A DNA stretch of 64,000 nt from Solirubrobacterales bacterium (GTDB lineage: Bacteria > Actinomycetota > Thermoleophilia > Solirubrobacterales > Solirubrobacteraceae), in contig CANJIV010000003.1 of assembly GCA_947474595.1 (NCBI GenBank), forward strand, positions 1-64,000, given 5' to 3'. The notes beneath the pieces were generated by a model. The model saw nothing but the letters and a program-made list of their open reading frames with translations. It was not told the origin of the DNA and ran no database searches. Of the stretch, positions 11,444-25,729 are shown piece after piece; the stretch's first letter is position 1, and each line of letters starts with the position of its first letter. A program made the position numbers and the translations under genes.

Positions 11444-13021
11444 TCAGACCACGCGTACCATTTGGGCTAGCTGTGGTTCGTCGTTAGCTGCCGCCGACTG
11501 CGAGGCTTCGATCCGTCCCTGGAGAAGGTCATAGAGGGAGTTAATCGCCGGTGCGTCTACTCCAGCGTCTTGGGCTGCCTTAATAAGTAGAGCGATCTGG
11601 CGCACGTCGGCCTCTGCCTGATTTCGATCGACTCCCCGCAGCTCTTGACCTACCGCTGAAGTAATAAAACCCTCACAATCGGCGTCACGAGCGAGAGCGA
11701 GTCGGGCCACCTCTGCCAGGACAGAGTCGCCCGCCAGGCCGACAGGGCTCGCGCCTAGTGGCGACGCAGCCGCGGTCGCTATGGCAGCGGCCCCGGCCGC
11801 ACAACCGGCCAACTCAACGCCAACCACTGCATCTGTCTTCTTGACGGCAAAGCTTGACCTGGCCAAGAGGGCTGCGACCTCGCGTAGGAAGCCGGGGTCT
11901 AGGGACCCAAGGGCCAGCGATTGGCGAGGCCCCTGTTCACCAACAAGTTGGAGTGCGCCGACGATCGTCGCGACCGCCCGTGCGGAGATCCTTTGACCTA
12001 CATATTCCGAAGCTAACGCGCCATCTGGGGCCACCAGCCCCGTCGAGGCGACAACCACACCAGCCGTAGCGGCGATCTCATCACCGTGGATTGCGATCGC
12101 AGCAGGAAGATCATCGGATGCCACCGCGAAACAGACGAGATCGGCCTGAGCGACGGCGACCTCAGATTCAAGACAGACTCGAAAATCCTCAGATGCCATC
12201 GCGGCTGCCAACCCATCGGCTCTGGCGCACTGCGCCCTCAGGTCGCTAACCCGCTCCTCGTTATGGCATCCAAGTTCGACCCTTAGTCCAGCTTGCGCTA
12301 GGAGTACCGCAAGGCTGCCCGCCCAGCTGCTCGATCCAAGCACAACAGCGCGCCGCAGAGGAGAGAGCCCCCCCAGCCACTCCCACTGAAGCATCACACT
12401 GAGCCAGATTCGATCTGTGACTTCAGCGGTCAGCTGTTGGGAGGGATTCTCGACTGCTGGAAAGTGCTGTGGGCATCCGATGCGGATACGGACCTTGTGT
12501 GGGCGAAAGCGCCAGCCGCGCCTCACGGCCTCGGTGCCGATCACTGCGACCGGAATCACCGGAGCGCCGGTCTCTAGGGCTAGACGACCGACGCCACGGC
12601 GTGGACTACCCAGCGACCCAGGGCGTGTACGCGAGCCTTCGGGAAAGATCAAGATCAGGTCCCCGCGAGCCAGAATCGCCTTCGCCGTCTCGACCATCTC
12701 CTGGTCGCCGACACCTCGGGCAACCGGAAACGCGCCGAGCGAGTTCAAGATCCAACCAACGAAGCGGTTGGAAAAAAGCTCGCTCTTAGTGACGTAGTAG
12801 ACAGGGCGGCGAGCCACCGTGCCGATTACGAAGGGATCTAAGAATGATCGGTGGTTAGAGGCAAAGATCGCCGCACCCTCACGCGGGACGTGTTCGCGCC
12901 CGACTCGTCCGAGGCGAAAGTAGATATGGAAGAACGGCTGGAAGAAAGCGCGGACCGTCCAATAGACAAAGCGATTGGCTCCGTGGTTGCGCGCGCGGGC
13001 GTGGTGGCGCGAGAGGTCCAT
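11444..13021 (-). CDS. 1-acylglycerol-3-phosphate acyltransferase fused to a degenerate GpsA-like domain
   Basis: The 525-residue protein has two parts. Residues ~20-215 are a PlsC acyltransferase with the HX4D box (NHRSFLD, His57/Asp62), FPEGSRTR (~126-133) and PVIPVAV, so lysophosphatidate acylation at the membrane is likely. Residues ~224-505 follow glycerol-3-phosphate dehydrogenase (GpsA): AVVLGSSSWAGSLAVLLAQAG at the nucleotide site, GVELAGCAAGAAAIA, and a late GVDAPAINSLYDLLQG. The GpsA part looks inactive: the glycine loop is altered (GSSSWAG), the catalytic lysine of the usual GALKN motif is replaced by alanine (~409), and the TSxxSRN region is missing. It lies just downstream of the divergent 13073 gene. 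Confidence 0.88.
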   Translation of the reverse strand: MDLSRHHARARNHGANRFVYWTVRAFFQPFFHIYFRLGRVGREHVPREGAAIFASNHRSFLDPFVIGTVARRPVYYVTKSELFSNRFVGWILNSLGAFPVARGVGDQEMVETAKAILARGDLILIFPEGSRTRPGSLGSPRRGVGRLALETGAPVIPVAVIGTEAVRRGWRFRPHKVRIRIGCPQHFPAVENPSQQLTAEVTDRIWLSVMLQWEWLGGLSPLRRAVVLGSSSWAGSLAVLLAQAGLRVELGCHNEERVSDLRAQCARADGLAAAMASEDFRVCLESEVAVAQADLVCFAVASDDLPAAIAIHGDEIAATAGVVVASTGLVAPDGALASEYVGQRISARAVATIVGALQLVGEQGPRQSLALGSLDPGFLREVAALLARSSFAVKKTDAVVGVELAGCAAGAAAIATAAASPLGASPVGLAGDSVLAEVARLALARDADCEGFITSAVGQELRGVDRNQAEADVRQIALLIKAAQDAGVDAPAINSLYDLLQGRIEASQSAAANDEPQLAQMVRVV

Positions 13022-14553: not shown

Positions 14554-14613
14554 CGACAGCCGTAGGATCATGTTGTCTAGCGACGCATTCCAGTCGTTGC
14601 TACTGACTGTCTT

Positions 14614-14687
14614 GCCGGAGTAGCTCAGTTGGTCAGAGCGCCTGTCTTGTAAACAGGGGGTCAGGGGTTCGAATCCCCTCTCCGGCT
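14614..14687 (+). tRNA. tRNA-Thr (anticodon TGT)
   Basis: The 74-nt cloverleaf is complete: acceptor GCCGGAG/CTCCGGC with discriminator T, D stem GCTC/GAGC, anticodon stem CCTGT/ACAGG around loop CTTGTAA (anticodon TGT at 14648-14650), and T stem AGGGG/CCCCT with loop TTCGAAT. CCA is not encoded. The part from the anticodon loop to the 3' end (14646-14687) recurs at 17460-17501, which marks this gene as an integration target. Confidence 0.96.
14646..14687 (+). repeat. Left copy of a 42-bp direct repeat (att-like), inside tRNA-Thr
   Basis: The 42 bp from the first base of the anticodon loop to the discriminator base are repeated exactly at 17460-17501; the match stops at both sides (T versus A before it, C versus T after it). 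An identity block that begins in the anticodon loop and completes the tRNA 3' end is the usual core of a tyrosine-recombinase attachment site. Confidence 0.8.
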
Positions 14688-14690
14688 CTA

Positions 14691-14706
14691 GGAGAGACGA
14701 CAGAAC
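14691..14706 (+). repeat. Left arm of a 16-bp inverted repeat
   Basis: GGAGAGACGACAGAAC starts 4 nt after the tRNA-Thr gene. Its exact reverse complement lies at 15449-15464. Both arms flank the NTF2-like gene inside the att-bounded segment. A copied tRNA flank or a mobile-element end could explain it. Confidence 0.7.
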
Positions 14707-14750
14707 AGACGACAAAAGTCGAAACTCAGCAAGCACGGGCTTGGTTGAGT

Positions 14751-14780
14751 CTCCCGGGCGGCTGCGAAGTCGGCCGGGAG
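14751..14780. other. Inverted repeat downstream of tRNA-Thr
   Basis: CTCCCGG and CCGGGAG form a 7-bp stem with a 16-nt GC-rich centre. It may terminate or process the tRNA transcript, but no T tract follows. Confidence 0.4.
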
Positions 14781-14833
14781 CTGTTCTGTACATCACTCAG
14801 AGCTTTTAAATGCTAAGACCGCCGCCGGTGAGT

Positions 14834-14839
14834 TATGCT
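14834..14839 (+). promoter_or_regulatory. Candidate leaderless -10 box, NTF2-like gene
   Basis: TATGCT is followed by 6 nt (CGGCTC) and the ATG at 14846. This decides the start: an in-frame ATG 36 nt upstream lies before this box. Confidence 0.5.
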
Positions 14840-14845
14840 CGGCTC

Positions 14846-15253
14846 ATGGCAGCCGACCCCGCGAGCACGGTCCGTGATTTCGTCGCCGCTTTCGCCGTGG
14901 CTGACGCCGCGGCGATGGCTACCGTGCTCGACGAGGGCGTCGTGGCACACATCACCAACGCCGCGGGCGGCAGCGACTGCATCGAGGGCCGCGACGAGCT
15001 GCTGGGGCGCATCGGCTCAGTCGACTACGGCGCGGCCGAGCTAACCATCAAGGTGACCAACACCGTCGAGCCTGCCCCCGGGCAGGTGCTGGCCATGGCA
15101 GAGGTTCACGCCTCCGCGCCTTCGGGGGACAAGCTCCACAACTTCGCCGGCCACCTCTGCTCCGTGGAGGACGGCCGGATCACGGAGTGGTGGATGGTCG
15201 AGGCGCTCCCCGCCGAGAGCGACCGTTTTTGGGCTGCTGTCACGGCAGGCTGA
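14846..15253 (+). CDS. NTF2/SnoaL-like fold protein
   Basis: The 135-residue protein has the cone-fold pattern: STVRDFVAAFAVADAAAMAT helix, VVAHITNAAGG strand, IEGRDELLGRIGSVD, and C-terminal strands ending in VEDGRITEWWMVEAL. SnoaL-like proteins include ketosteroid-isomerase-type enzymes and binding proteins; no substrate can be inferred. It is the first gene inside the segment bounded by the tRNA-Thr repeats. Confidence 0.75.
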   Translation: MAADPASTVRDFVAAFAVADAAAMATVLDEGVVAHITNAAGGSDCIEGRDELLGRIGSVDYGAAELTIKVTNTVEPAPGQVLAMAEVHASAPSGDKLHNFAGHLCSVEDGRITEWWMVEALPAESDRFWAAVTAG

Positions 15254-15448
15254 GATCCCATCGCATGCTGCTCGATGCGCTTGATCGCGTGAACTTAATT
15301 GTGCCGGTCGCGCGTTGGCTGGACGGGGCAGATAACTCGCCGGATTGATCGGACGCGCCAACACGCACTCTGTACAGAACCCCGGTGCGCACGTGTACAA
15401 ACAGGCATCGGGCCCCGTCCGGAAGTGAGCCTGAGCAGGGGTTTTAGA

Positions 15449-15464
15449 GTTCTGTCGTCTCTCC
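15449..15464 (-). repeat. Right arm of the 16-bp inverted repeat
   Basis: GTTCTGTCGTCTCTCC is the exact reverse complement of the sequence just after the tRNA-Thr gene (14691-14706). Confidence 0.7.
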
Positions 15465-15482
15465 CTCTACGTTTACGCGGAT

Positions 15483-15525
15483 CTGACACCTCGAAATCGA
15501 GGGGGTGTCAGCAAAGTGTCAGCAA
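15483..15525. repeat. Cluster of TGACAC elements
   Basis: CTGACACC (15483-15490) and GGTGTCAG (15504-15511) form a hairpin whose centre is itself palindromic (CTCGAAATCGAG). A further GTGTCAGC copy follows at 15516-15523 with an 11-bp direct period. It could be a terminator or a set of recombinase arm sites. Confidence 0.5.
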
Positions 15526-15583
15526 TTGGATCGGGAGGGCGGACCGGGCACGCTGACGCAGCGCACGTGTCGAGCGGAGCGGG

Positions 15584-15589
15584 TACGGT
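15584..15589 (+). promoter_or_regulatory. Candidate leaderless -10 box, first pentapeptide gene
   Basis: TACGGT is followed by 6 nt (TGACCT) and the ATG at 15596; no ribosome site is present. Confidence 0.5.
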
Positions 15590-15595
15590 TGACCT

Positions 15596-16315
15596 ATGAG
15601 CTCATTTGCGAAGGTTTCCTGTCTGTCACTTCTAACGGTCGCGCTGCTCGCTGGTTCGGCGCAGGCGCGCACCGTCAACGGCTGCGTAATCAAAGCTAAG
15701 ACGAACTGCGCTGGTAAGAATCTCAGCCGCCAGAATCTGCGCGGTGCTGTGTTAAATAACAGCGTGCTGCATCACATCAACCTACGCAACGCGAACCTAC
15801 GCGGAGCTGACCTGCGCTACGCCGACCTACGCAAAGCTGACCTACGCGGAGCTGATCTAAGCGGAGCGAAGCTACGCGGCGCAAAGCTTCAGTACTACAC
15901 CGCACCAAAGAAAAGGGGTGCGCGCGCATCGCAAACTCCTCTCTGCTCACAAAACAGCTGCATTGGCGCGAACATGGCCAACGCGAACCTGGCCAACGCG
16001 ATCCTGGCCAACGCGAACCTGACCAACGCGATCCTGACCAACGCGAACCTGTACGACGCGAACCTGACCAACGCGAACCTGTCCTACACGAACCTGACCG
16101 GCGGCGCGATGCTGTTCGGCGCGAACCTGACCAACGCGAACCTGTCCTACGCGAACCTGTCCGGCGCGTTTCTAAACGACGCGACCCTGAACAACGCGAA
16201 CCTGACCGGCGTGGCCCTGAACTTCTTTAGCGTGGTTGGCGCGACGGGCTGTTCCACGGTCACGCCCACCGGAGCCCTCAACGGCTACATCAACGGCAAC
16301 GGCTGCTACAACTAG
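15596..16315 (+). CDS. Secreted pentapeptide-repeat protein, two solenoid blocks
   Basis: The 239-residue protein has a signal peptide (LSLLTVALLAGSAQARTV). After it come a TVNGCVIKAKTNCAGKNL cap with two cysteines, a first A(D/N)LxX pentapeptide block (~residues 45-100, NANLRGADLRYADLRKADL), a linker with another cysteine pair (CSQNSC), and a second block (~125-215) of ANLTN-type repeats. Such repeats fold into a right-handed quadrilateral beta helix. The cap resembles that of the 19045 protein, so they are paralogues. Function is unknown; the cysteines probably form disulfides outside the cell. It lies inside the att-bounded segment. Confidence 0.85.
   Translation: MSSFAKVSCLSLLTVALLAGSAQARTVNGCVIKAKTNCAGKNLSRQNLRGAVLNNSVLHHINLRNANLRGADLRYADLRKADLRGADLSGAKLRGAKLQYYTAPKKRGARASQTPLCSQNSCIGANMANANLANAILANANLTNAILTNANLYDANLTNANLSYTNLTGGAMLFGANLTNANLSYANLSGAFLNDATLNNANLTGVALNFFSVVGATGCSTVTPTGALNGYINGNGCYN
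15964..16215 (+). repeat. 15-bp tandem DNA repeats in the pentapeptide gene
   Basis: The second solenoid block is encoded by near-identical 15-bp units of the form GCGAACCTGACCAAC with variants. The low divergence at silent positions suggests recent expansion or homogenisation, unlike the first block, where units differ more. Confidence 0.75.
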
Positions 16316-16512
16316 CACCAACCCGCAACACCCGACGCAGCAACTAGAAGCGCCCACCGCAGTCCGGTTTGGGTCCCGTTCTCCGGCCGTTTGGACGGTT
16401 CCGGGGAGTGCTGCCAGCGCCTGGCGGTGAGAGGGGTAGGACCGGCCATACCTGCAAACCGGATGCGCCTTGATAACCTCCGACTTTCCTGAACCCAAAC
16501 CACCATCAAAAC

Positions 16513-17403
16513 ATGAGAATTCAAAACATGAGAATCATCCGCCTTTCTGCCTCCGTAGTTCTTCTCGCGCTCGTCGCAGCTTTCGCGGTTTCCGGCTGCG
16601 GTTCCTCATCGAGCACCAGCTCCAGTGACACAACTACCTCGGCTGAGATAGACCCCAACGCCAAGCCAGCTAACCCAGAACCCGAGACCGGCCACTGGAG
16701 CTACTCCGGCGCCGATGGCCCCACGCACTGGGCCGACCTAGATTCGGATTACAAGGCTTGCGCAGACGGCACAGAGCAATCCGGAATCGACTTGACCGGG
16801 GCGCGCAGCGGTGACTTCGTCAGGGTCGCGCTGAGCTACAAGCCGGAGCCGTTCGAGGTCAAGAACAACGGCCACGCGATCGAGGTCGCGGCACTCAAGA
16901 GCAAGGATACGCTCGCATTGGTCGACAGCAGCAATCCCGACGCGCCGCTGACCGATTACGTCCTAGGACAACTCCACTTCCATGCGCCCAGCGAACACAC
17001 TCTCAATGGCAAGCACTACCCGGTTGAGGCTCACTTTGTGCACCAAGCGCCCAACGGCAAGCTCGCCGTCGTAGGCGTCTTCTACGAGCAGGGCGCCGCT
17101 AACCCTACGTTCGCCAAGATCGCCTCCAAGATCCCCTCCCAGGCCGACCAAACAAACCAGATGTCATCTGATCTGAACCCCGAAGGGCTGATTCCTCCGC
17201 TAGACGGAACGGCCTTCCGCTACTACGGCTCGCTGACTACGCCGCCATGCACCGAAGGTGTCACTTGGACGGTGTACAAGCAGCCGGTCACTCTCTCGGC
17301 CAGTCAGATTGAAGCTCTCACTTCTGTCTACAGCGACAACGCCCGGCCGGTTCAGCCGATCGGTGATCGCGTGCTTCTCAGCGCATCAGGCAGCGGCAAG
17401 TAG
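16513..17403 (+). CDS. Alpha-class carbonic anhydrase, lipoprotein
   Basis: The 296-residue protein starts with a lipoprotein signal (ASVVLLALVAAFAVSGC) and a Ser/Thr-rich linker, so it should sit on the outer face of the membrane. The catalytic domain has WSYSGADGPTHWADL, the zinc-ligand motif QLHFHAPSEH, the third ligand in EAHFVH, and YYGSLTTPPCTEGV. It hydrates CO2 reversibly. Two in-frame ATGs exist (16513 and 16528) within a 15-bp tandem repeat; either keeps the signal peptide. It is the last gene before the right att copy. Confidence 0.92.
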   Translation: MRIQNMRIIRLSASVVLLALVAAFAVSGCGSSSSTSSSDTTTSAEIDPNAKPANPEPETGHWSYSGADGPTHWADLDSDYKACADGTEQSGIDLTGARSGDFVRVALSYKPEPFEVKNNGHAIEVAALKSKDTLALVDSSNPDAPLTDYVLGQLHFHAPSEHTLNGKHYPVEAHFVHQAPNGKLAVVGVFYEQGAANPTFAKIASKIPSQADQTNQMSSDLNPEGLIPPLDGTAFRYYGSLTTPPCTEGVTWTVYKQPVTLSASQIEALTSVYSDNARPVQPIGDRVLLSASGSGK

Positions 17404-17459
17404 AACCGCCGAACAGCTACTGGCAGATTCGGGGCATCGCTGTGCTTCCGAGCGTCGAA

Positions 17460-17501
17460 CTTGTAAACAGGGGGTCAGGGGTTCGAATCCCCTCTCCGGC
17501 T
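17460..17501 (+). repeat. Right copy of the 42-bp direct repeat: 3' part of tRNA-Thr
   Basis: This is an exact copy of tRNA-Thr bases 14646-14687 without the 5' half, so it cannot be a functional tRNA. It has the position and extent expected for the distal attachment site of an element inserted at the tRNA-Thr gene. The segment between the copies is about 2.8 kb. Confidence 0.85.
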
Positions 17502-17678
17502 TGGGGCGAAACGCAATGGACTCAGGCGTTTTCGCCGCATGTTGTGTGACATCGGTGTCGCTCAAGGAGCGCCGCTGAGCGCCGCTTAGGCGTACAAGAG
17601 CCGTACTGGGAAGCGTGACGCAGGACTTCCCGCTGGCAACGCATGCTGCGAAACCCGATTGCGGCTGCGACACTCAGT

Positions 17679-17966
17679 TCAGCCGTCTCTGTGCTGCTTC
17701 CCTTCTCTCCAGTGGTGACTGACGGCGATTGCAGTCGTGACTGCGATAACGCCAACCGTGTTGGCGACGATCATCGCGATATTGCTGAGTGCGATCGCGT
17801 AGGCGAGCCATGCGCCATTGCCGACCCACAGCAGGCCGAGGAACGGCATGCTGACGTCGGCCGAGCTGCGCCGCTGATGGGCGCGCAATGCCTGCAGGAG
17901 CGGACTGGCGCCCATGATGACTCCGCACGTTCCGGCCAGAACCGCAAGTGATGCTGTGGTATCCAT
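17679..17966 (-). CDS. SemiSWEET-like small membrane transporter
   Basis: The 95-residue protein has three hydrophobic helices and the SWEET-type pattern: LAVLAGTCGVIMGASPLLQA, then SSADVSMPFLGLLWVGNGAW, then IAMIVANTVGVIAVTTAIAV. SemiSWEETs dimerise to move sugars by facilitated diffusion. The ATG at 17966 is chosen because the first helix then starts at the N-terminus; a longer frame adds 26 polar residues. The helix-1 proline in SPLLQ is consistent with the family. Confidence 0.75.
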   Translation of the reverse strand: MDTTASLAVLAGTCGVIMGASPLLQALRAHQRRSSADVSMPFLGLLWVGNGAWLAYAIALSNIAMIVANTVGVIAVTTAIAVSHHWREGKQHRDG

Positions 17967-18185
17967 AGCGCGCAGGCTACTGATCGCCGCGCTGCCCCGC
18001 CATCTCAAGGCGAGCGGCCCAATGACTGATGACAGTTGACGCAATTCAGGGGCTTTGCATGGGTTCCCCTCTGCTTGACATCGATGACAGTTGCAACCAC
18101 TATCGGGATGGTCGGTCGATCACGCAGTAGCCGAGCTGCGCCTCATCTGAACACCAATCGCATCGATGATCGGGGCGCATCTCGG

Positions 18186-18214
18186 TTGCACATTGCATTA
18201 TTTGCGTTTATATG
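18186..18214 (+). promoter_or_regulatory. Sigma70-type promoter of the 18228 gene
   Basis: TTGCAC (18186-18191) and TATATG (18209-18214) are separated by 17 nt, and the ATG follows 13 nt later. It lies in an AT-rich patch unlike the surrounding DNA. Confidence 0.5.
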
Positions 18215-18227
18215 AAACCGTTGGCGG

Positions 18228-18887
18228 ATGAAAACATCTTTTTTCTCAATAACAGCAAGTACTGCAGTGATCGCCGCCCTAGTTTTTGCTCCGGGCGCCA
18301 ACGCTAGCAGGGCTTCAGCCGCATCCCAACAGACTGCCTGCTTTAAGTTGGCATTTACTCTCGGGGCGGTCGAACTCGTAGAGTTGCAAGCAGAAGTGGC
18401 TAGATATGAGGTTAATAGCGAAGTCACGAGCAACTTCTATGACATTCTGGCGTTCGATGCCACCTACGCTAACTTGGCCCGTTTGGTGAAGGCATATTCC
18501 GCCCACTCTTTGGTGCTTAAGCGGCTCGCGGTCGCTGAGACCGCCAACGGTGCGGCGGTCACCGGCCTAATAAAGGCCGTGAAGACAGCCGGATTCACTC
18601 TAACCCCCCTCCAGTTAAAGCTTCTCACGGAGTTCGCCAACATGGAGCGCCTGCAAGGTAGGGCTCAAGCAGCAGCCGCGGCGGCTACCGACCGGCTTGT
18701 AGTAGCAATTCGGTATTACGCAAAGAACTACCGCCGTTACCCAGTGACCGCTGCGACGAGACTCCGATCGGCTGAGCGAGTATCGGCATCCGCTGTTCAG
18801 GTCGAATTTGCGTTGGATTTAGATGAGCAAGAGATTGAGCCCCTCGCATTGGACGTCGTAGATATCTTCTGTAGCCCAACCGGGTAG
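18228..18887 (+). CDS. Secreted helical protein of unknown function
   Basis: The 219-residue protein has a signal peptide (FFSITASTAVIAALVFAPGA, then NASRAS). The mature part is Ala/Leu-rich and probably all helical (LGAVELVELQAEVARYEV, AAVTGLIKAVKTAGFTL, ANMERLQGRAQAAAAAATD), ending in an acidic segment with a late cysteine (DVVDIFCSPTG) that may pair with the early TACF cysteine. No family is recognised. Base composition near its start is lower in GC than the neighbours, which fits an accessory origin. Confidence 0.7.
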   Translation: MKTSFFSITASTAVIAALVFAPGANASRASAASQQTACFKLAFTLGAVELVELQAEVARYEVNSEVTSNFYDILAFDATYANLARLVKAYSAHSLVLKRLAVAETANGAAVTGLIKAVKTAGFTLTPLQLKLLTEFANMERLQGRAQAAAAAATDRLVVAIRYYAKNYRRYPVTAATRLRSAERVSASAVQVEFALDLDEQEIEPLALDVVDIFCSPTG

Positions 18888-18897
18888 TTTGCGGCAC

Positions 18898-18976
18898 GCT
18901 AGGTGGATCTAGCCTTGTTCTTTAGACCGTCCGTCGCGCACAGACGGTGAAGAGCACGGGGAAAAGACCACCTAGC
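18898..18976. repeat. Nested inverted repeats between accessory genes
   Basis: GCTAGGTGG (18898-18906) and CCACCTAGC (18968-18976) are a perfect 9-bp inverted pair. Inside lies a second hairpin, ACCGTC (18926-18931) with GACGGT (18943-18948). It may terminate the upstream gene or form a structured element; no T tract is seen. Confidence 0.5.
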
Positions 18977-19032
18977 ATCGCTGCTAGAGCCTCATAATGT
19001 CGGCTGATGACGCATCTTTGGAGTGGACAAAC

Positions 19033-19038
19033 TATGGT
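19033..19038 (+). promoter_or_regulatory. Candidate leaderless -10 box, second pentapeptide gene
   Basis: TATGGT is followed by 6 nt (CTGGCG) and the ATG at 19045. It favours this start over the in-frame ATG at 18997, which would place 16 polar residues before the signal peptide. Confidence 0.5.
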
Positions 19039-19044
19039 CTGGCG

Positions 19045-20106
19045 ATGCGCTTCCTCCTGAAGGTATTCACGGGTTCGTTGCTGGCTGCTGCTGTGCTTGC
19101 TGGCGCGGCAGAGGCGAAGACCGTCAACGGCTGCGTTATTAAGCATCACACCGTTTGCCATCACAAGAATCTGCACGGCGCCAACCTCCACCACGCCAAC
19201 CTCCACCACGCCAACCTAGAGCACGCCAACCTTCGCGGCGCCATCCTTCATCACGCGGTCCTTCATCACGCCAAAATGGGGCACGCGGACCTCCGAGGCG
19301 CCGACCTCAGGTACGCCGACCTCAGAGGCGTAGACCTAAGGCATGCCAACCTCAGGGGCGCAAAGCTTGATGGAGCGAAGCTTCATCGATACACCGTAAA
19401 ACGACAGGCGCCAGCTACGGCTCAGTACTCGTCGCGGCCGTCTTGCTACCCGAACTGCAATAGCGCGAACCTAAGCCACGCAGACCTGACCGGTGCGTCG
19501 ATGACCGGAGTGTACCTAGAGAGCGCGAACCTATTGCTTACGACTCTGACAAGCGCGGATCTGACCGGTGCCCACATGAAGAACGTCCAGGCGATCGATG
19601 CGTCCTTCCGGGGGGCGACCCTGAGCAGTGCAGATATGAGCAACGCGGACCTCTCAGATGCGGATCTAGAGGGCGCGGATCTAGAGGGCGCGAACCTAAC
19701 GGGCGCTCAGCTAACGGGCGCAGATCTCTACAGAGCTGACCTGAGCCAGCTAGGGCAATTTGATACGCCGATAGGCTCCCAACACCCGACGTATGCTGGC
19801 AGTTCGACACTGCCCAAGGATCTAACGCCTAAAACGGATCTAAGCTTTGCGGATCTAAGCGCCGCAGACCTGACCGGCGCAGTCCTATACAAAGCGATAA
19901 TGAAGAGTGTGCACCTACAGTCCTATTACACCGGACGGCTCTTAGCAGGCCCGACGATGTACCAAGTGGACCTGAGCTACGCGGATATGACCGGCGCGGT
20001 TGGCAGTCCAACCCAACTCGTTCAGCCAACTTTTCTTAACACGATATGCCCTAACGCCACGATCAGTTCCTCGACCTGCTCATGGCTTAGCGTACCTCTG
20101 CCTTAG
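19045..20106 (+). CDS. Secreted pentapeptide-repeat protein, two solenoid blocks (paralogue)
   Basis: The 353-residue protein has a signal peptide (FTGSLLAAAVLAGAAEAKTV). It shares the cap TVNGCVIKHHTVCHHKNL with the 15596 protein, then a His-rich pentapeptide block (ANLHHANLHHANLEHANL, ADLRGADLRYADLRG), a cysteine linker (CYPNC), and a long second block (SADLTGAHM, DLEGADLEGANLTGAQL) interrupted by a ~30-residue loop. A beta-helical exported protein is expected; function is unknown. It lies 1.5 kb outside the att-bounded segment, so one of the pair may be the chromosomal ancestor of the other. Confidence 0.85.
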   Translation: MRFLLKVFTGSLLAAAVLAGAAEAKTVNGCVIKHHTVCHHKNLHGANLHHANLHHANLEHANLRGAILHHAVLHHAKMGHADLRGADLRYADLRGVDLRHANLRGAKLDGAKLHRYTVKRQAPATAQYSSRPSCYPNCNSANLSHADLTGASMTGVYLESANLLLTTLTSADLTGAHMKNVQAIDASFRGATLSSADMSNADLSDADLEGADLEGANLTGAQLTGADLYRADLSQLGQFDTPIGSQHPTYAGSSTLPKDLTPKTDLSFADLSAADLTGAVLYKAIMKSVHLQSYYTGRLLAGPTMYQVDLSYADMTGAVGSPTQLVQPTFLNTICPNATISSSTCSWLSVPLP

Positions 20107-20109
20107 TAG

Positions 20110-21951
20110 CTAACGGTCGCGGAGAAGCCTCTGATAGTGCTCAAAAATCGCCTCTCCCCCTGCCCCGAGGCTGCTAGTGGATAGCTCTGGCGTGTATCTG
20201 CTGACAACCTGAGGTTTGTCGACCTCAAACCCGCTGAAATGCAACAGCGACACTCGTCTCCCGTCGAGCACAACTTGGCCGTCTCGGAGGCCTATCTGGC
20301 TGTCATAGAAGTTCCAGTAGCCAACATTTAACCCTGGTTCTCTGATCACTTTGACCTGATCGAAGAGAGCTGGTGCTAGATCGAGCCAGCGCTGGTCATA
20401 GGCAACACCGGCTGCGATGTCGACCTCACAGCGCTCGATGAGGCGCGAGGCCCACCAATCGGCGAACTCGATCCCTTGCGCGGAGTTGCAGACACCTACT
20501 ACTCCAGCGTTGAAGGTACCGACGGCGCAAAGCAGCATCTCGAATTGGGCACTACCCACCGCACCGATAGCGAGCTGTTTGAGATGCGGGGTTAGGACCA
20601 CTGATGCATCTTCTTTGAGTGGATCGAGCAGGCGGTCTAGTGGCCCAGTCACAAGCGTGTCGGCGTCGAGATAGAGAACGCTACTCCAGCCCTCTCGAAG
20701 CAGTCTGGCAATCAGCGCTGCCTTATTCCGGGACGACGTTGCAGGCATCGGTCCCTCGGGCAGCCGCTCAAGGATGAGCGGCAGCTCCGGATGCCAGCTG
20801 TGCAAGGAATCTCTGAGCGCAAATGCCCTAGATGCAAACCGAGAGTCGAAGTTAGTACAGACAACGCTGCCACGTCGCAGCCTGCAGCGCAGGCGACGCA
20901 AAGCGCGTCTCCTTACTGGGCGCGGGCGTTTAGGGCCGCCAGCGAGGGACATCTCACTCCAGTCGCCTGCCTGGCCAACGGCAACCGATCTGACTCTGGG
21001 GCTGTTTTGGGGGTCTTGTTTGGGGTCAGTAACGACGCCGGGCGCTGGGCCTTCAGAAAATGCGTAGTGCTCGTCCAACGCTTGATTGAACCCTTCCTCA
21101 ATGAGGGCTCTGTGGTATCGCTTGAGCAGCTGCCCGACCGTCCCCGCCTGTTCTAGCTGGACTCTTTGGTTATATCGGGTTAGCCGCAGAGGACTGTCGG
21201 CGTCAAATCCGCTGAACCTGAGCAGGCTAGCTCGCTGGCCTTGGGCCCAGACGGTTTGAGCTCGCAGCTCTAGATTGCGCTCGGTCACATTCCAGTGCCC
21301 AATGTTGCAGCCAGGATCGCGAATCACACAGACGTCGCCAAACAAGCTTGGCACTAGATCAAGCCATCGCTGCTCCCAGTGCAAGCCATGCTCTAGGTCC
21401 CATCTGCAGTGCCAGCGCAGTCGCGTCCACCACCACTCAAGAAACTGATCGCTCCTTGGATCGGCACGAACGCCGATAATCCCGCCGTTATAAACCCCGG
21501 CCTGAAGAATGTTAAGTTCGCGCTCGACACCATCAGCCCCGGGCGCCGGACCAAGCATATGCGGCGTAAGCGTCAGCCAGTGACCAAGGTCGAGCATAGA
21601 AGTGATTGGATCGAGTGGCCCCGTCACGAGGCTCTCTTGCTTAATGAAAACAACCTGATCGAACCCATCTGCCAATAGGTGTGCGATCAGCACAGGTGTC
21701 AGGCTGTAGCTGAACTGGAGCTCCTCGTAGCGGCTAGCTAAATCATGCAACTCGCCCCGCTCGCAGCCCAGATCATCGAGTGTCAACAGATCAAACGGCT
21801 CGTCTTCTCGGGGCGCAGTGGCGCTAGGCTCATCCGCCAGGAGCACGACCATCCGCTCACCTGGATGCCAGCTAGTAAACGACCGCGCCGTTACACGGGC
21901 CAATGGCAGAAACCGCTTGGATGCGATTGTGGCGAAGATTCTAGCGCCCAT
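20110..21951 (-). CDS. Tandem glycosyltransferase-like protein, one half degenerate
   Basis: The 613-residue protein consists of two homologous halves (~1-300 and ~355-613), each like a GT-A nucleotide-sugar transferase: ARSFTSWHP / RDSLHSWHP, GVYNGGIIGV / GTFNAGVVGV, EQRWLDLVPSLF / DQRWLDLAPALF, CNIGHWNV / LNVGYWNF, LLRFSGFDAD / LLHFSGFEVD. The C-terminal half keeps the metal-binding DxD (LDADTLVTG, ~430), while the N-terminal half has IKQESLVTG (~103-111) instead. The linker (~330-360) is strongly basic. No signal peptide is seen, so action at the cytoplasmic face is likely. The acceptor is unknown. Confidence 0.75.
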   Translation of the reverse strand: MGARIFATIASKRFLPLARVTARSFTSWHPGERMVVLLADEPSATAPREDEPFDLLTLDDLGCERGELHDLASRYEELQFSYSLTPVLIAHLLADGFDQVVFIKQESLVTGPLDPITSMLDLGHWLTLTPHMLGPAPGADGVERELNILQAGVYNGGIIGVRADPRSDQFLEWWWTRLRWHCRWDLEHGLHWEQRWLDLVPSLFGDVCVIRDPGCNIGHWNVTERNLELRAQTVWAQGQRASLLRFSGFDADSPLRLTRYNQRVQLEQAGTVGQLLKRYHRALIEEGFNQALDEHYAFSEGPAPGVVTDPKQDPQNSPRVRSVAVGQAGDWSEMSLAGGPKRPRPVRRRALRRLRCRLRRGSVVCTNFDSRFASRAFALRDSLHSWHPELPLILERLPEGPMPATSSRNKAALIARLLREGWSSVLYLDADTLVTGPLDRLLDPLKEDASVVLTPHLKQLAIGAVGSAQFEMLLCAVGTFNAGVVGVCNSAQGIEFADWWASRLIERCEVDIAAGVAYDQRWLDLAPALFDQVKVIREPGLNVGYWNFYDSQIGLRDGQVVLDGRRVSLLHFSGFEVDKPQVVSRYTPELSTSSLGAGGEAIFEHYQRLLRDR

Positions 21952-22003
21952 ACTGTCCCGCTCGTGCCCCCCGCGGCGTTAGCGACTGTTAAAGGGTCCC
22001 TGA

Positions 22004-22387
22004 CTACTGCTGCGCCACCACCCACTCGCCGTCACGGCGGCCGAGTTCAAATAAGACGTCTCCACCAGAAGTGGTTATGGAAAAAATCGCTCGATCGTCA
22101 TCGGTCCCTGGAGGGTCGATAACTTGGGTCAGCTTCACGTCTGAGACCTCCACGTCGGGGTGGGCTACGCCGAAACGTTCTCGCGCGATCGTTAGTAGCG
22201 CCGCTGGCTCCCACCCGTTGTCTTGGGCGTGCGCTGCAGCTAGGTCGCGGTTGATTACGCTCAAGCGCTCGTCAAAGCCCTGCGCCTGTGAGCGATTACG
22301 CCGGTTGACGGCGATCGCGCCACCAACCCCAAAGACGACAATTAGGGTCCCTAGCGCGATTAGAAGGATTAGCAGCCATGTGTCCAT
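22004..22387 (-). CDS. Single-pass membrane protein of unknown function
   Basis: The 127-residue protein has one N-terminal transmembrane helix (WLLILLIALGTLIVVFGVGG) followed by a basic stretch and a soluble domain of ~90 residues that alternates helix (WEPAALLTIARERFG) and strands (AIFSITTSGGDVLFELG). The soluble part may be a small alpha/beta domain; no family is named with confidence. It follows metK by 42 nt on the same strand. Confidence 0.65.
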   Translation of the reverse strand: MDTWLLILLIALGTLIVVFGVGGAIAVNRRNRSQAQGFDERLSVINRDLAAAHAQDNGWEPAALLTIARERFGVAHPDVEVSDVKLTQVIDPPGTDDDRAIFSITTSGGDVLFELGRRDGEWVVAQQ

Positions 22388-22429
22388 CGCTAGATCCTAC
22401 GTGGGGTCGCTGGCCCGTGCTGGGCGCCG

Positions 22430-23647
22430 CTAGACATCAAGCCCTGCCGCAGCGCGCAGGGTTGCTGCCTTATCTGTCTTCTCCCATGTGAAGTCATCGT
22501 CGTCGCGACCGAAATGGCCGTAGGCAGCGGTCTTCTGATAGATCGGCCGGTGCAGATCTAGATAGACGCGGAAGGCGCCGGGGCGCAGGTCGAAGTGCTC
22601 GTCTACGAGCCTTACGATCAATGACTTAGCAACGTGCTCGGTTCCAAAGGTCTCGACCATGACTGAAACCGGGTGTGCCACTCCGATTGCGTAGGCGACC
22701 TGGACCTCAACGCGATCGGCAAGCCCCGCAGCCACAACGTTCTTGGCAACGTAGCGGGCGGCGTAGGCGGCACTGCGATCAACCTTTGAGGGATCCTTAC
22801 CTGAGAAGGCACCGCCGCCGTGGCGAGCCATTCCGCCATACGTGTCGACGATTATCTTGCGCCCAGTAAGTCCACAGTCGCCAACCGGACCACCAATCAC
22901 GAACCGACCGGTTGGGTTGACGAGGAAGGCTTTGCGTAGCTTTTCGGCGTCGTAAAGGCTCTCAGGCAGGATCGGCTCGACGACGTGCTCCCAGAGATCG
23001 TCTGGTAGTAACGACATCGCTCCCTCTTTGTGCTGGGTAGAGATCAGCAGCTGCTCTATCTCCACAGGAACCCCATCGCGATAGCGCACCGAGACCTGAG
23101 TCTTTCCATCTGGGCGCAGATACGGCAATACCTCCGCCTTACGGATGTCGGCGAGCCGCTTGGCGAGCTTGTGGGCGAGCGAGATCGCCATCGGCATCAG
23201 CTCTTCTGTCTCATTGGAGGCGTAGCCGAACATCATCCCCTGATCGCCGGCTCCATCTTGGTCTAGGCGGTCGTTGTCAGATGGATCGGTGCGAGCCTCG
23301 TAGGCCTGGTTGACGCCTTGGGCGATGTCGGTGGACTGTTTATCGATCGCATTAATCACCGCACATGAGTCGGCAGAGAAGCCCAGATCAGCGTCGGTGT
23401 AGCCGATCTCGCGGATCGTGTCGCGGGCGACCTTCTGAATATCTACGTAGGTATCTGTGGTTATCTCGCCGGAGATAACGACTAGGCCGGTATTGACTAG
23501 CGTCTCGCATGCAACGCGCCCGTAGGGATCGTCGGCCAGGACTGCGTCGAGCACGCCGTCAGAGATCTGATCGGCGATCTTGTCTGGATGACCCTCGGTC
23601 ACCGACTCTGAGGTGAAGAGGTATTCGTTGTCGGCTAGCGGGCCCAT
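22430..23647 (-). CDS. metK: S-adenosylmethionine synthase
   Basis: The 405-residue enzyme makes SAM from methionine and ATP. Signatures are clear: [20 protein letters not shown] at the N-terminus, [12 protein letters not shown], and [16 protein letters not shown] (P-loop-like metal/phosphate site). The length is normal. A GGAG ribosome site precedes the ATG. The 96-nt gap upstream does not match a SAM riboswitch by eye. It is the last enzyme gene of the block starting at the pseudouridine synthase. Confidence 0.97.
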
Positions 23648-23743: not shown

Positions 23744-25729
23744 CTAGCGTCGACGAGGGCTGACTCCACCTTCGCTGCGGCGCTGCTTACGTTCGACGAA
23801 GTCGATGATGATCGGTACCCCTTCCAAGGCGTAACGCTCGCGCATACGGTTCTCAATGAAGTACGCATAGTCGCGAGTCACCCTTGTGCGGGAGTTGACC
23901 TGAATCGCAAAACGGGGCGGGCGCTCACCGATCTGAGCCATGTAAAGCATCTTTAGGCGATGGCCCTGCTTGGCGGGCGGCTGGCGGGTCTGCATCACAT
24001 CTGCGAGAAAGCGGTTTAACTCAGGCGTCGGGATCCGCCCGCCGCGTCGATCTGCGAGAACGAGCGCTTCGTCGATCAGGCGCTGTACGTGGCGGCCGGT
24101 CAGCGCGCTGGCGGTCAAAACCCGAGGCCGCAGCCGCAGCTTACGTGATACGCGTCCCTTTTCGTGGGCCAGATCAGCATCCTCTCGACCCGTATCCCAC
24201 TTATTTAGGACAAGTGCCGTGGCGCATCCCGACTGCATTGCCAGCTCGGCAATTCTCAGGTCCTGGGCGGTCACACCGTCGTTGGCGTCACAGACAACAA
24301 GAGCTACGTCGGCCCGTTCGGCGGCTCGGCGCGAACGCAAGGTCGTGTAGTACTCGACTCCATCGCCCGAGTTAGCCACCTTGGCTTGACGGCGGATCCC
24401 TGCCGTGTCGATCAAAATCACAATGCGGCCGTCGACCTCAAGACGCTCATCGATCGCATCTCTTGTGGTTCCGGCTTTGGGAGAGACGATCACGCGTTCA
24501 CGGCCTAAAAATCTATTGACCAGTGACGACTTGCCGACGTTTGGCCTACCGATCAACGCCAGACGGACCACTGACTCGTCGCGATCCTCTTCTTCTCGCG
24601 CCTCAGGCAGTGCCGTGACAACGCGATCGAGTAGATCGCCTGTCCCCAGTCCATGAGCGGCCGACACCGCAACCGGATCTCCCAAGCCCAGCTGATGGAA
24701 CTCCGCTGACTGGGGAAGATCACGCGGTGAGTCGCATTTATTAGCCGCGACAATCACAGGAATCGTCGCGCGACGCAGAAGGTCGGCGAGCTCGGCGTCA
24801 CCTGGCCGAAGTCCGGCGCGGGCGTCAACAACAAGCATCGCTACGTCAGCGTCAGCTAGAGCCGCCCGAGCTTGATCTTGAATAGATCGCGCTAGCTCGT
24901 CGCCGTCTTCGAGGTCCACTCCTCCTGTATCAACGAGTAAGAACCGTCGCCCTCCCCACTCTGCTGGCACCTCCTTACGGTCGCGCGTAATCCCTGCTCG
25001 CTCGTGAACAACGGCTTCACGTGTGCCTGAGAGGCGGTTGACTAACGAGGACTTGCCGACATTTGGATAGCCGACGACGGCGACCTTCATCGGACCATGC
25101 AGCCCGCGGCCTTCGCTGCGGTGCTCGCGAGCCAGTGCCGCTATCTGCTCGACGACCTGTTCAATCGTCAGGCCCGTCGTATCGAGGGTAATTGAACCCG
25201 GGGCTGGGGCGAGTGGGCTGTGCTCGCGGGTGCTGTCGCGCTCGTCGCGTAGCGTCTGTTGGGCCAGCACCTCGGCCTCGTCGGCGTCTAGCTCAACGGC
25301 GCGCCGTCGTGCGCGCTCCTCCGCCGTGGCCGTCAGATAAATCTTAACTGCGGCATCCGGGGCAACTACGGTTCCGATGTCTCTGCCCTCGACTACCCAG
25401 TCGCCCTTAGCCATCAGCTCGCGCTGCTTGCCAACAAGCGCTTCGCGTACCCCGACATCGGTGGCTACACGTGATGCGGCTTCAGTGACTTCGGCTGTAC
25501 GAATCTCCTCGCTGACGTCGATGCCGTCGAGGATGACCTGCTCACCCAAGGAAATCTCAACGTCGGCAGCGACCACAGCTGGCGCCACCGTCGGGGCCTG
25601 CAGAGTCGCCAAGCCAACGCAGCGGTACATCGCTCCAGAGTCTAGATAGGTGAAGCCCAGCGCATCGGCAACAGCGCGTGCAACGGTGGATTTACCGGCC
25701 CCTGCGGGACCGTCGATGGCTATAACCAT
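23744..25729 (-). CDS. Bifunctional cytidylate kinase / ribosome-assembly GTPase Der
   Basis: The 661-residue fusion has two enzymes. Residues 1-~210 are CMP/dCMP kinase ([38 protein letters not shown]). Residues ~213-650 are Der/EngA with two GTPase domains ([19 protein letters not shown] and [18 protein letters not shown], each with its DTGG/DTAG and NKCD/NKWD motif) plus the C-terminal KH-like domain ([18 protein letters not shown]). Fusions of cmk and der are known in some actinobacteria. Der acts in 50S assembly; Cmk in pyrimidine nucleotide synthesis. Confidence 0.95.

Follow-up and report, generated by a model that had tools for sequence, protein, structure and literature searches.

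The tRNA-Thr(TGT) gene of Solirubrobacterales bacterium (G000), a small-genome actinobacterium (2.12 Mb in 14 contigs, estimated 94.7% complete), is followed by a variable locus that is probably a cassette array at this tRNA, of which a single delimited unit is left and into which another kind of mobile element later inserted. The stretch analysed, referred to here as the window, comprises the first 64,000 nucleotides of contig CANJIV010000003.1 (assembly GCA_947474595.1; G000:C3:1-64000). A first-pass annotation of this DNA had proposed a single mini-island with three cargo genes, possibly of a new class; what we find instead is a nested element and a reduced member of a cassette array, with a boundary common to two relatives of genus g13 (G077 and G066). 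All comparisons are of assembly against assembly, mostly metagenomic.

The 3' half of the tRNA gene recurs downstream as an exact 42-bp repeat (Table 1) that has no internal mismatches and whose identity stops at both ends. It starts with CTTGTAA, the seven anticodon-loop bases. Its 23-bp core matches twice in the window, whereas 100 shuffles gave 0.00 matches on average. ARAGORN and Rfam place the left copy in an intact tRNA, the sole match of the Rfam search, and ARAGORN calls no tRNA at the right copy, a 3' half only. The sharp-ended repeat, and its division between an intact gene and a 3' fragment, therefore hold as first annotated. The tRNA-directed integration proposed there is likewise supported, both by the epimerase-tRNA-Thr(TGT) neighbourhood, which is kept across the family, and by an integrase with a comparable repeat in a distant relative (see below). 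The 42-bp core, probed for a phage or plasmid origin, had no exact match among viral contigs.

The two relatives were reached by searching for the window's arm-like motif. In G077, five 42-bp tRNA-Thr 3' halves follow tRNA-Thr(TGT) and the right flank is the same as that of the window; G066 has seven halves, the last one degenerate and lying just before the same flank, and the window's glycosyltransferase-like gene also comes next after the array in both. The cassettes of these arrays mostly have heads P1 and A with secreted pentapeptide genes, the commonest cassette gene type, or head N with NHL-repeat genes, in the order tRNA-P1-N-A-A-A in G077 and tRNA-N-T-P1-N-T-A in G066. When the two genomes are aligned, 1197 bp of P1 cassette show 99.7% identity and 2920 bp of N cassette 98.6%, while identity falls to 92.1% in the right flank (3534 bp) and to 81.3% at the tRNA-Met locus (3156 bp), these last two loci, rather than genome-wide identity, being our gauge of G066-G077 divergence. 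If the cassettes had diverged like the right flank (7.9%), the differences seen in P1 and N would have binomial probabilities of ~1e-36 and ~1e-56, and the boundaries of high identity coincide with tRNA halves. Near-identical cassettes within less similar flanks, together with the changed order, thus indicate that the cassettes move. The same cassette type also occurs at tRNA-Met in both relatives, with a 44-bp tRNA-Met half in G066. In G066 we further observed a 9-kb metabolic block, flanked by the final two tRNA-Thr halves of the array (L146/L147, G066:C181:10730-19985), with genes for an FAD oxidase, a ThDP (thiamine diphosphate) enzyme, a GntR regulator, an oxidoreductase, a permease and an aminotransferase.

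The fragment at 17460 corresponds to the P1-tail/N-head boundary of these arrays. Because 17426-17609 matches the relatives, with 106 bp of an N head whose NHL gene is gone, and an A head with pentapeptide and carbonic anhydrase genes stands on the tRNA side, the window array is a reduced and recombined one. The right-hand tRNA fragment is an old boundary common to another genus, one of five to seven in an array. The direct repeat TGTCAGCAAAGTGTCAGCA of the A head has an 11-bp period (15506-15524), lies ~43 nt from the tRNA once the nested element is removed and is a candidate integrase arm site. The three open reading frames annotated at first pass do exist; the 16-bp inverted repeats, the 5-bp duplication and a pentapeptide paralogue outside the 42-bp interval (18997-20106) had been overlooked, the last of these being probably the remnant of a further cassette with a lost boundary.

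Table 1. Features of the tRNA-Thr(TGT) locus in the window.
Feature	Position	Strand	Evidence or remark
Intact tRNA-Thr(TGT), attachment gene	14614..14687	+	ARAGORN; Rfam RF00005, 75.6 bits
att copy 1, tRNA 3' half, first anticodon-loop base to discriminator base	14646..14687	+	exact repeat
Target-site duplication CTCTA, left copy, overlapping tRNA 3' end	14686..14690	.	5 bp
Nested element, 774 bp, with SnoaL/NTF2-like gene	14691..15464	+	16-bp perfect terminal inverted repeats 14691-14706, 15449-15464
SnoaL_2/NTF2-like protein, cargo of nested element, not of tRNA island	14810..15253	+	Pfam PF12680, 37 bits
Target-site duplication CTCTA, right copy	15465..15469	.	5 bp
Cassette head, type A: CTCTACGTTTACGCG, CTGACACC/GGTGTCAG hairpin, then direct repeat TGTCAGCAAAGTGTCAGCA	15465..15530	+	
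Secreted pentapeptide-repeat protein, cassette cargo	15596..16315	+	Pfam PF00805; homologues in relatives' arrays
Lipoprotein alpha-carbonic anhydrase, cassette cargo seen only in G000 copy	16513..17403	+	Pfam PF00194, 136.6 bits
Cassette tail, orthologous to P1 tail of relatives	17426..17459	+	86-88% identity across 17426-17609 to G077 and G066
att copy 2, 42-bp tRNA-Thr 3' half without 5' half	17460..17501	+	cassette boundary common to G077 and G066
Head of lost N-type (NHL-repeat) cassette	17502..17609	+	80-83% identity over 106 bp to N cassettes of G077 and G066
Second secreted pentapeptide protein, outside 42-bp interval	18997..20106	+	probable remnant of a further cassette
Glycosyltransferase-like gene, right flank of variable locus	20110..21951	-	tblastn 62% identity over 612 aa to G077; DNA matches

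The NTF2-like gene, previously counted as island cargo, belongs instead to a distinct element that has ends and a target duplication of its own. This element is inserted 3 nt past the discriminator base of the tRNA; its ends read GGAGAG...CTCTCC, the 16-bp inverted end being GGAGAGACGACAGAAC, and such inverted ends between two CTCTA copies are the hallmark of a transposon that duplicates 5 bp of its target. The exact 16-mer occurs at two more sites in G000, each directly 3' of a tRNA or tRNA 3' half, and among 146 genomes of the family that were searched it was also found beside tRNAs in genus g13. All eight left ends of the element family start 3 nt after the discriminator base and are oriented as the tRNA, at seven tRNA species in two genera. 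Three copies are complete: that of the window (774 bp, tRNA-Thr TGT, CTCTA/CTCTA), one in G065 (2146 bp, tRNA-Ala, CATCG/CATCG) that encodes a 613-aa secreted protein, and one in G075 (633 bp, tRNA-Phe, CATCG/CAACG). Further left ends adjoin tRNA-Gln in G012 and tRNA-Thr GGT in G077, a 3' half of the latter tRNA in G000, and, also in G000, tRNA-Val (only 16 bp conserved) and tRNA-Arg (diverged). Conservation covers ~145 bp at left ends and ~100 bp at right ends. Left-end models were run against 232 genomes of the order and 399 of the class, and only g1 and g13 yielded convincing matches; a third genus gave a weak one (G178, L117), which has no adjoining tRNA and was not counted. A left-end hit at a tRNA-Arg of G064 (L116) overlaps the tRNA itself and was rejected. 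A 24-bp element end had no exact match among viral contigs, and the left end none in plasmids or phages.

Cargo of the family is mostly one secreted or membrane protein, and no recognisable transposase lies inside any copy. Among nine genomes searched (G000 and eight of g13), rve-type transposases (TnsB/TniA-type) had matches in G065 and G070 only, with none in G000, G012, G064, G066, G073, G075 or G077. An NHL-repeat type of secreted protein (start MMNLAVGSSSRR) was observed both in tRNA-3'-end elements and in tRNA-half cassettes (L107, L110, L146), so that the two systems have cargo in common. At one locus of G077 (L111, G077:C59:450-4265) a family right end adjoins at least 3.8 kb with a two-component system, a lipoprotein and an ABC-2 permease, and the contig stops before any left end; judging from this locus, elements larger than the complete copies may exist. 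The left end of the window element (14691-14835) is predicted to fold into a multi-branched structure, far better than shuffles do (z -5.3); we do not claim a structured RNA here, as two relatives have no such fold and there is one compensatory pair.

We give about even chances to the proposal that the family of 14691-15464 is an undescribed group of transposons, with a fixed insertion point at the base 3 nt beyond a tRNA 3' end (their target being tRNA nt 72-73 and the next 3 nt), and that it would spread mostly single-gene cargo in trans and share NHL-type cargo with the tRNA-half cassette array at the same genes. Some Tn7-like traits are present, namely the 5-bp target duplication and the fixed orientation at an attachment site, and others, TG...CA ends and a TnsB-type (rve) transposase, are lacking in G000, though a transposase could lie in the 5% of the genome that the assembly misses. 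CRISPR-associated transposons (CASTs) of the Tn7-like types I-B2, I-D and V-K home to tRNA genes (PMC10293859, PMC11406308) and resemble the family in these shared traits and in their tRNA targets. However, CAST I-D inserts 30-33 nt past the tRNA and the window element 3 nt, the ends of the latter start with GGAGAG and not TG, and no rve-type transposase was found in G000. Alternatively, 14691-15464 could be a tyrosine-recombinase element whose circle reads 16-bp arm, 5-bp spacer, 16-bp arm, since perfect inverted ends with 5 bp between them look like a recombination core, such enzymes typically target tRNAs and rve-type transposases are absent from seven of the nine genomes searched, G000 included. 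But the 5 bp differ between tRNAs, agree on both sides in two complete copies and at four of five positions in the third, and the target has no conserved right half-site. Moreover, a 5-bp overlap is unusual for tyrosine recombinases, and we hold this alternative to be improbable. A literature search, with subscription literature outside its coverage, found no account of a tRNA-3'-end element like 14691-15464, and of the two systems at this locus it is the more novel.

As to the enzymes behind the array, integrases lie directly beside tRNA-Thr(TGT) in G092 and G097; relative to G000, such elements were found only in another genus. The distant relative G092, whose integrase is of the tyrosine type, carries a 43-bp repeat from the same anticodon loop, and all four repeats checked (42, 43, 44 and 49 bp) start at or beside the anticodon loop, as expected of a tyrosine recombinase crossing over there. 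Repeats with an 11-bp period lie between tRNA and integrase in G092 (TGTCCCAAGTATGTCCC) and G097 (TGTCCCCCGCATGTCCC), and G083 has TGTCCCGAAAGTGTCCC just 3' of the tRNA; these look like integrase arm sites. The arm-like motif is TGTCAGC at Thr(TGT), TGCCAGC at Met and TGGCAGC at Thr(GGT), and this change with the target tRNA suggests cognate recombinases. In the interval itself the first-pass statement that there is no integrase proved right: tblastn with three integrases detected no remnants in 14600-22500. Integrase loss or action in trans, as proposed there, would fit the three tyrosine recombinases found in G000, one of them non-Xer-like, while the decayed single island does not stand.

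A second G000 locus offers an independent check. At tRNA-Thr(GGT), 3.4 kb containing a penicillin-acylase gene lies between two copies of a 49-bp repeat (L112, G000:C3:90222-93734), and the tRNA-3'-end element family adjoins the displaced 3' half at the far end of this island. Since the family otherwise always follows a tRNA gene, the far half was probably once the end of a complete tRNA, and the layout agrees with integration into the tRNA. A possible decayed integrase beside this tRNA (L112:4509-5077) has no Pfam support and is not claimed.

From this anatomy we propose that a tyrosine recombinase, probably acting in trans, would have inserted small circles at the tRNA-Thr anticodon loop, each circle bringing a tRNA 3' half that restores the gene and leaving the displaced half as the next boundary, so that repeated insertion would build a series of tRNA, cassette, half, cassette, half. 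The comparison of relatives shows that cassettes, mostly of one to three genes, have since been gained, lost, reordered and swapped between species, and that the G000 array was reduced to an A head with pentapeptide and carbonic anhydrase genes, a P1 tail and a single 42-bp half, followed by what is left of an N cassette, its head. The 774-bp element then inserted 3 nt after the tRNA, duplicating CTCTA, probably mobilised by a cut-and-paste-type transposase from elsewhere.

Several observations weigh against this history. The three tyrosine recombinases of G000 are two Xer-like ones and one beside tRNA-Pro, no cassette recombinase having been identified among them; the sole non-Xer-like one is a 484-aa integrase converging on tRNA-Pro(TGG) near a contig start (L056, G000:C10:1558-3145). 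No clean empty site was found, the window's downstream genes being beside tRNA-Thr in 0 of the 18 relatives' regions first examined, and metagenome assemblies, in which repeats can be mis-joined, prevail among the genomes compared. A variant 3' half has travelled with the N-cassette tail in G077 and G066, and at least one crossover lies right of position 17 of the 42 bp, which homologous recombination fits better than a fixed anticodon-loop crossover. The array might accordingly have been seeded once by integrase elements and reshaped afterwards only by homologous recombination between 42-bp halves and between pentapeptide genes that resemble each other, through duplications, deletions and DNA taken up from relatives, with no site-specific recombinase at work today. 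That exchange, the lack of a linked integrase in the window and in the G077 and G066 arrays, the paralogous neighbours and the adjacent pentapeptide genes with no half between them all speak for such a course, yet the cassettes are wholly different outside the 42 bp (heads P1, N, A and T), a short homology for efficient exchange, high identity begins and ends at halves, and the arm-like motifs vary with the tRNA. We consider it possible but rather unlikely, and weight site-specific recombination in trans about twice as heavily as purely homologous shuffling.

The chance that the locus is a single recent three-gene mini-island at tRNA-Thr that lost its integrase is slim. It would account for the exact 42-bp repeat, the integrase-free interval and the integrases at the same tRNA in relatives, but the NTF2-like gene belongs to the separate element, another genus has the right fragment too, along with 34 bp of the tail and 108 bp of the head, and relatives hold further boundaries and paralogues; the orthologous boundary in G077 and G066 largely refutes it. 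Still harder to credit is an assembly artefact or chance: the assemblies are metagenomic and contain repeats, but the window contig measures 259 kb and that of G077 125 kb, three assemblies concur on boundaries and flanks, and the 23-bp core has no matches in shuffles.

Returning to the cassette array, its closest likeness is to the additive flexible genomic islands. In 'Ca. Actinomarinales', integrase-less cassettes at tRNAs are marked by partial tRNA repeats (PMC7771536), and fGI-2 of 'Ca. Methylopumilus' consists of tRNA cassettes with recurring 20-bp tRNA-Lys ends (PMC10872708). Our locus likewise starts from an intact tRNA, has direct repeats of part of that tRNA where cassettes end, and differs in cassette content between relatives, with exchange between lineages; it also shares the streamlined hosts, the small tRNA-inserted cassettes, the transfer between genera and the lack of an obligatory integrase. 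Unlike in those islands, the halves extend over 42-49 bp, starting from the anticodon loop, the array is ordered, with mostly one- to three-gene cassettes and class-specific heads and tails, and whole cassettes are shared at 98.6-99.7% identity. The array itself is thus a variant of already known tRNA-directed cassettes without integrase.

Other systems agree in part. Cis-mobilizable elements (CIMEs), described along with tandem accretion at tRNA genes, keep their att sites and have lost the recombinase (PMC5704250), and the ssrA islands of Dehalococcoides form a tandem series at a single RNA gene, in which many lack an integration module (PMC3146451). As in a CIME, attL and attR are kept here and integration and transfer genes are absent; both kinds, however, are larger and derive from conjugative or recombinase-bearing islands, whereas our units measure ~0.1-3.5 kb (one 9 kb) and have no known cognate recombinase. 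For a tyrosine-integrase genomic island the linked integrase is missing. Tycheposons, as cited in PMC10872708, were described in Prochlorococcus; they measure 4-200 kb, and those described in Methylophilaceae hold a tyrosine recombinase. They too are tRNA-targeted cargo carriers of streamlined genomes, but no tyrosine recombinase lies at this locus. Integron arrays are similar in their ordered, exchangeable cassettes, mostly in one orientation, with a short recombination site between them, yet we see no attC-type site, platform or IntI-type integrase, and the separators are tRNA gene halves with no linked recombinase.

If the transposon-family proposal is correct, tRNA genes would serve two independent systems in small-genome actinobacteria as a port for exchanging genes of secreted proteins. 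Near-identical cassettes delimited by tRNA halves in diverged genomes make the integrase-less reshuffling of envelope and secreted proteins in streamlined bacteria directly testable, and the nested family clearly illustrates how a bacterial element that has inverted ends and makes a short target duplication can be locked to tRNA 3' ends without Tn7 machinery; the enzyme moving it is worth finding.

Elsewhere in the window, the open reading frame at 23744-25729 looks, by reading its sequence, like a fused cytidylate kinase and GTPase Der, and that at 11444-13021 joins an acyltransferase domain to a glycerol-3-phosphate dehydrogenase-like N-terminal domain.

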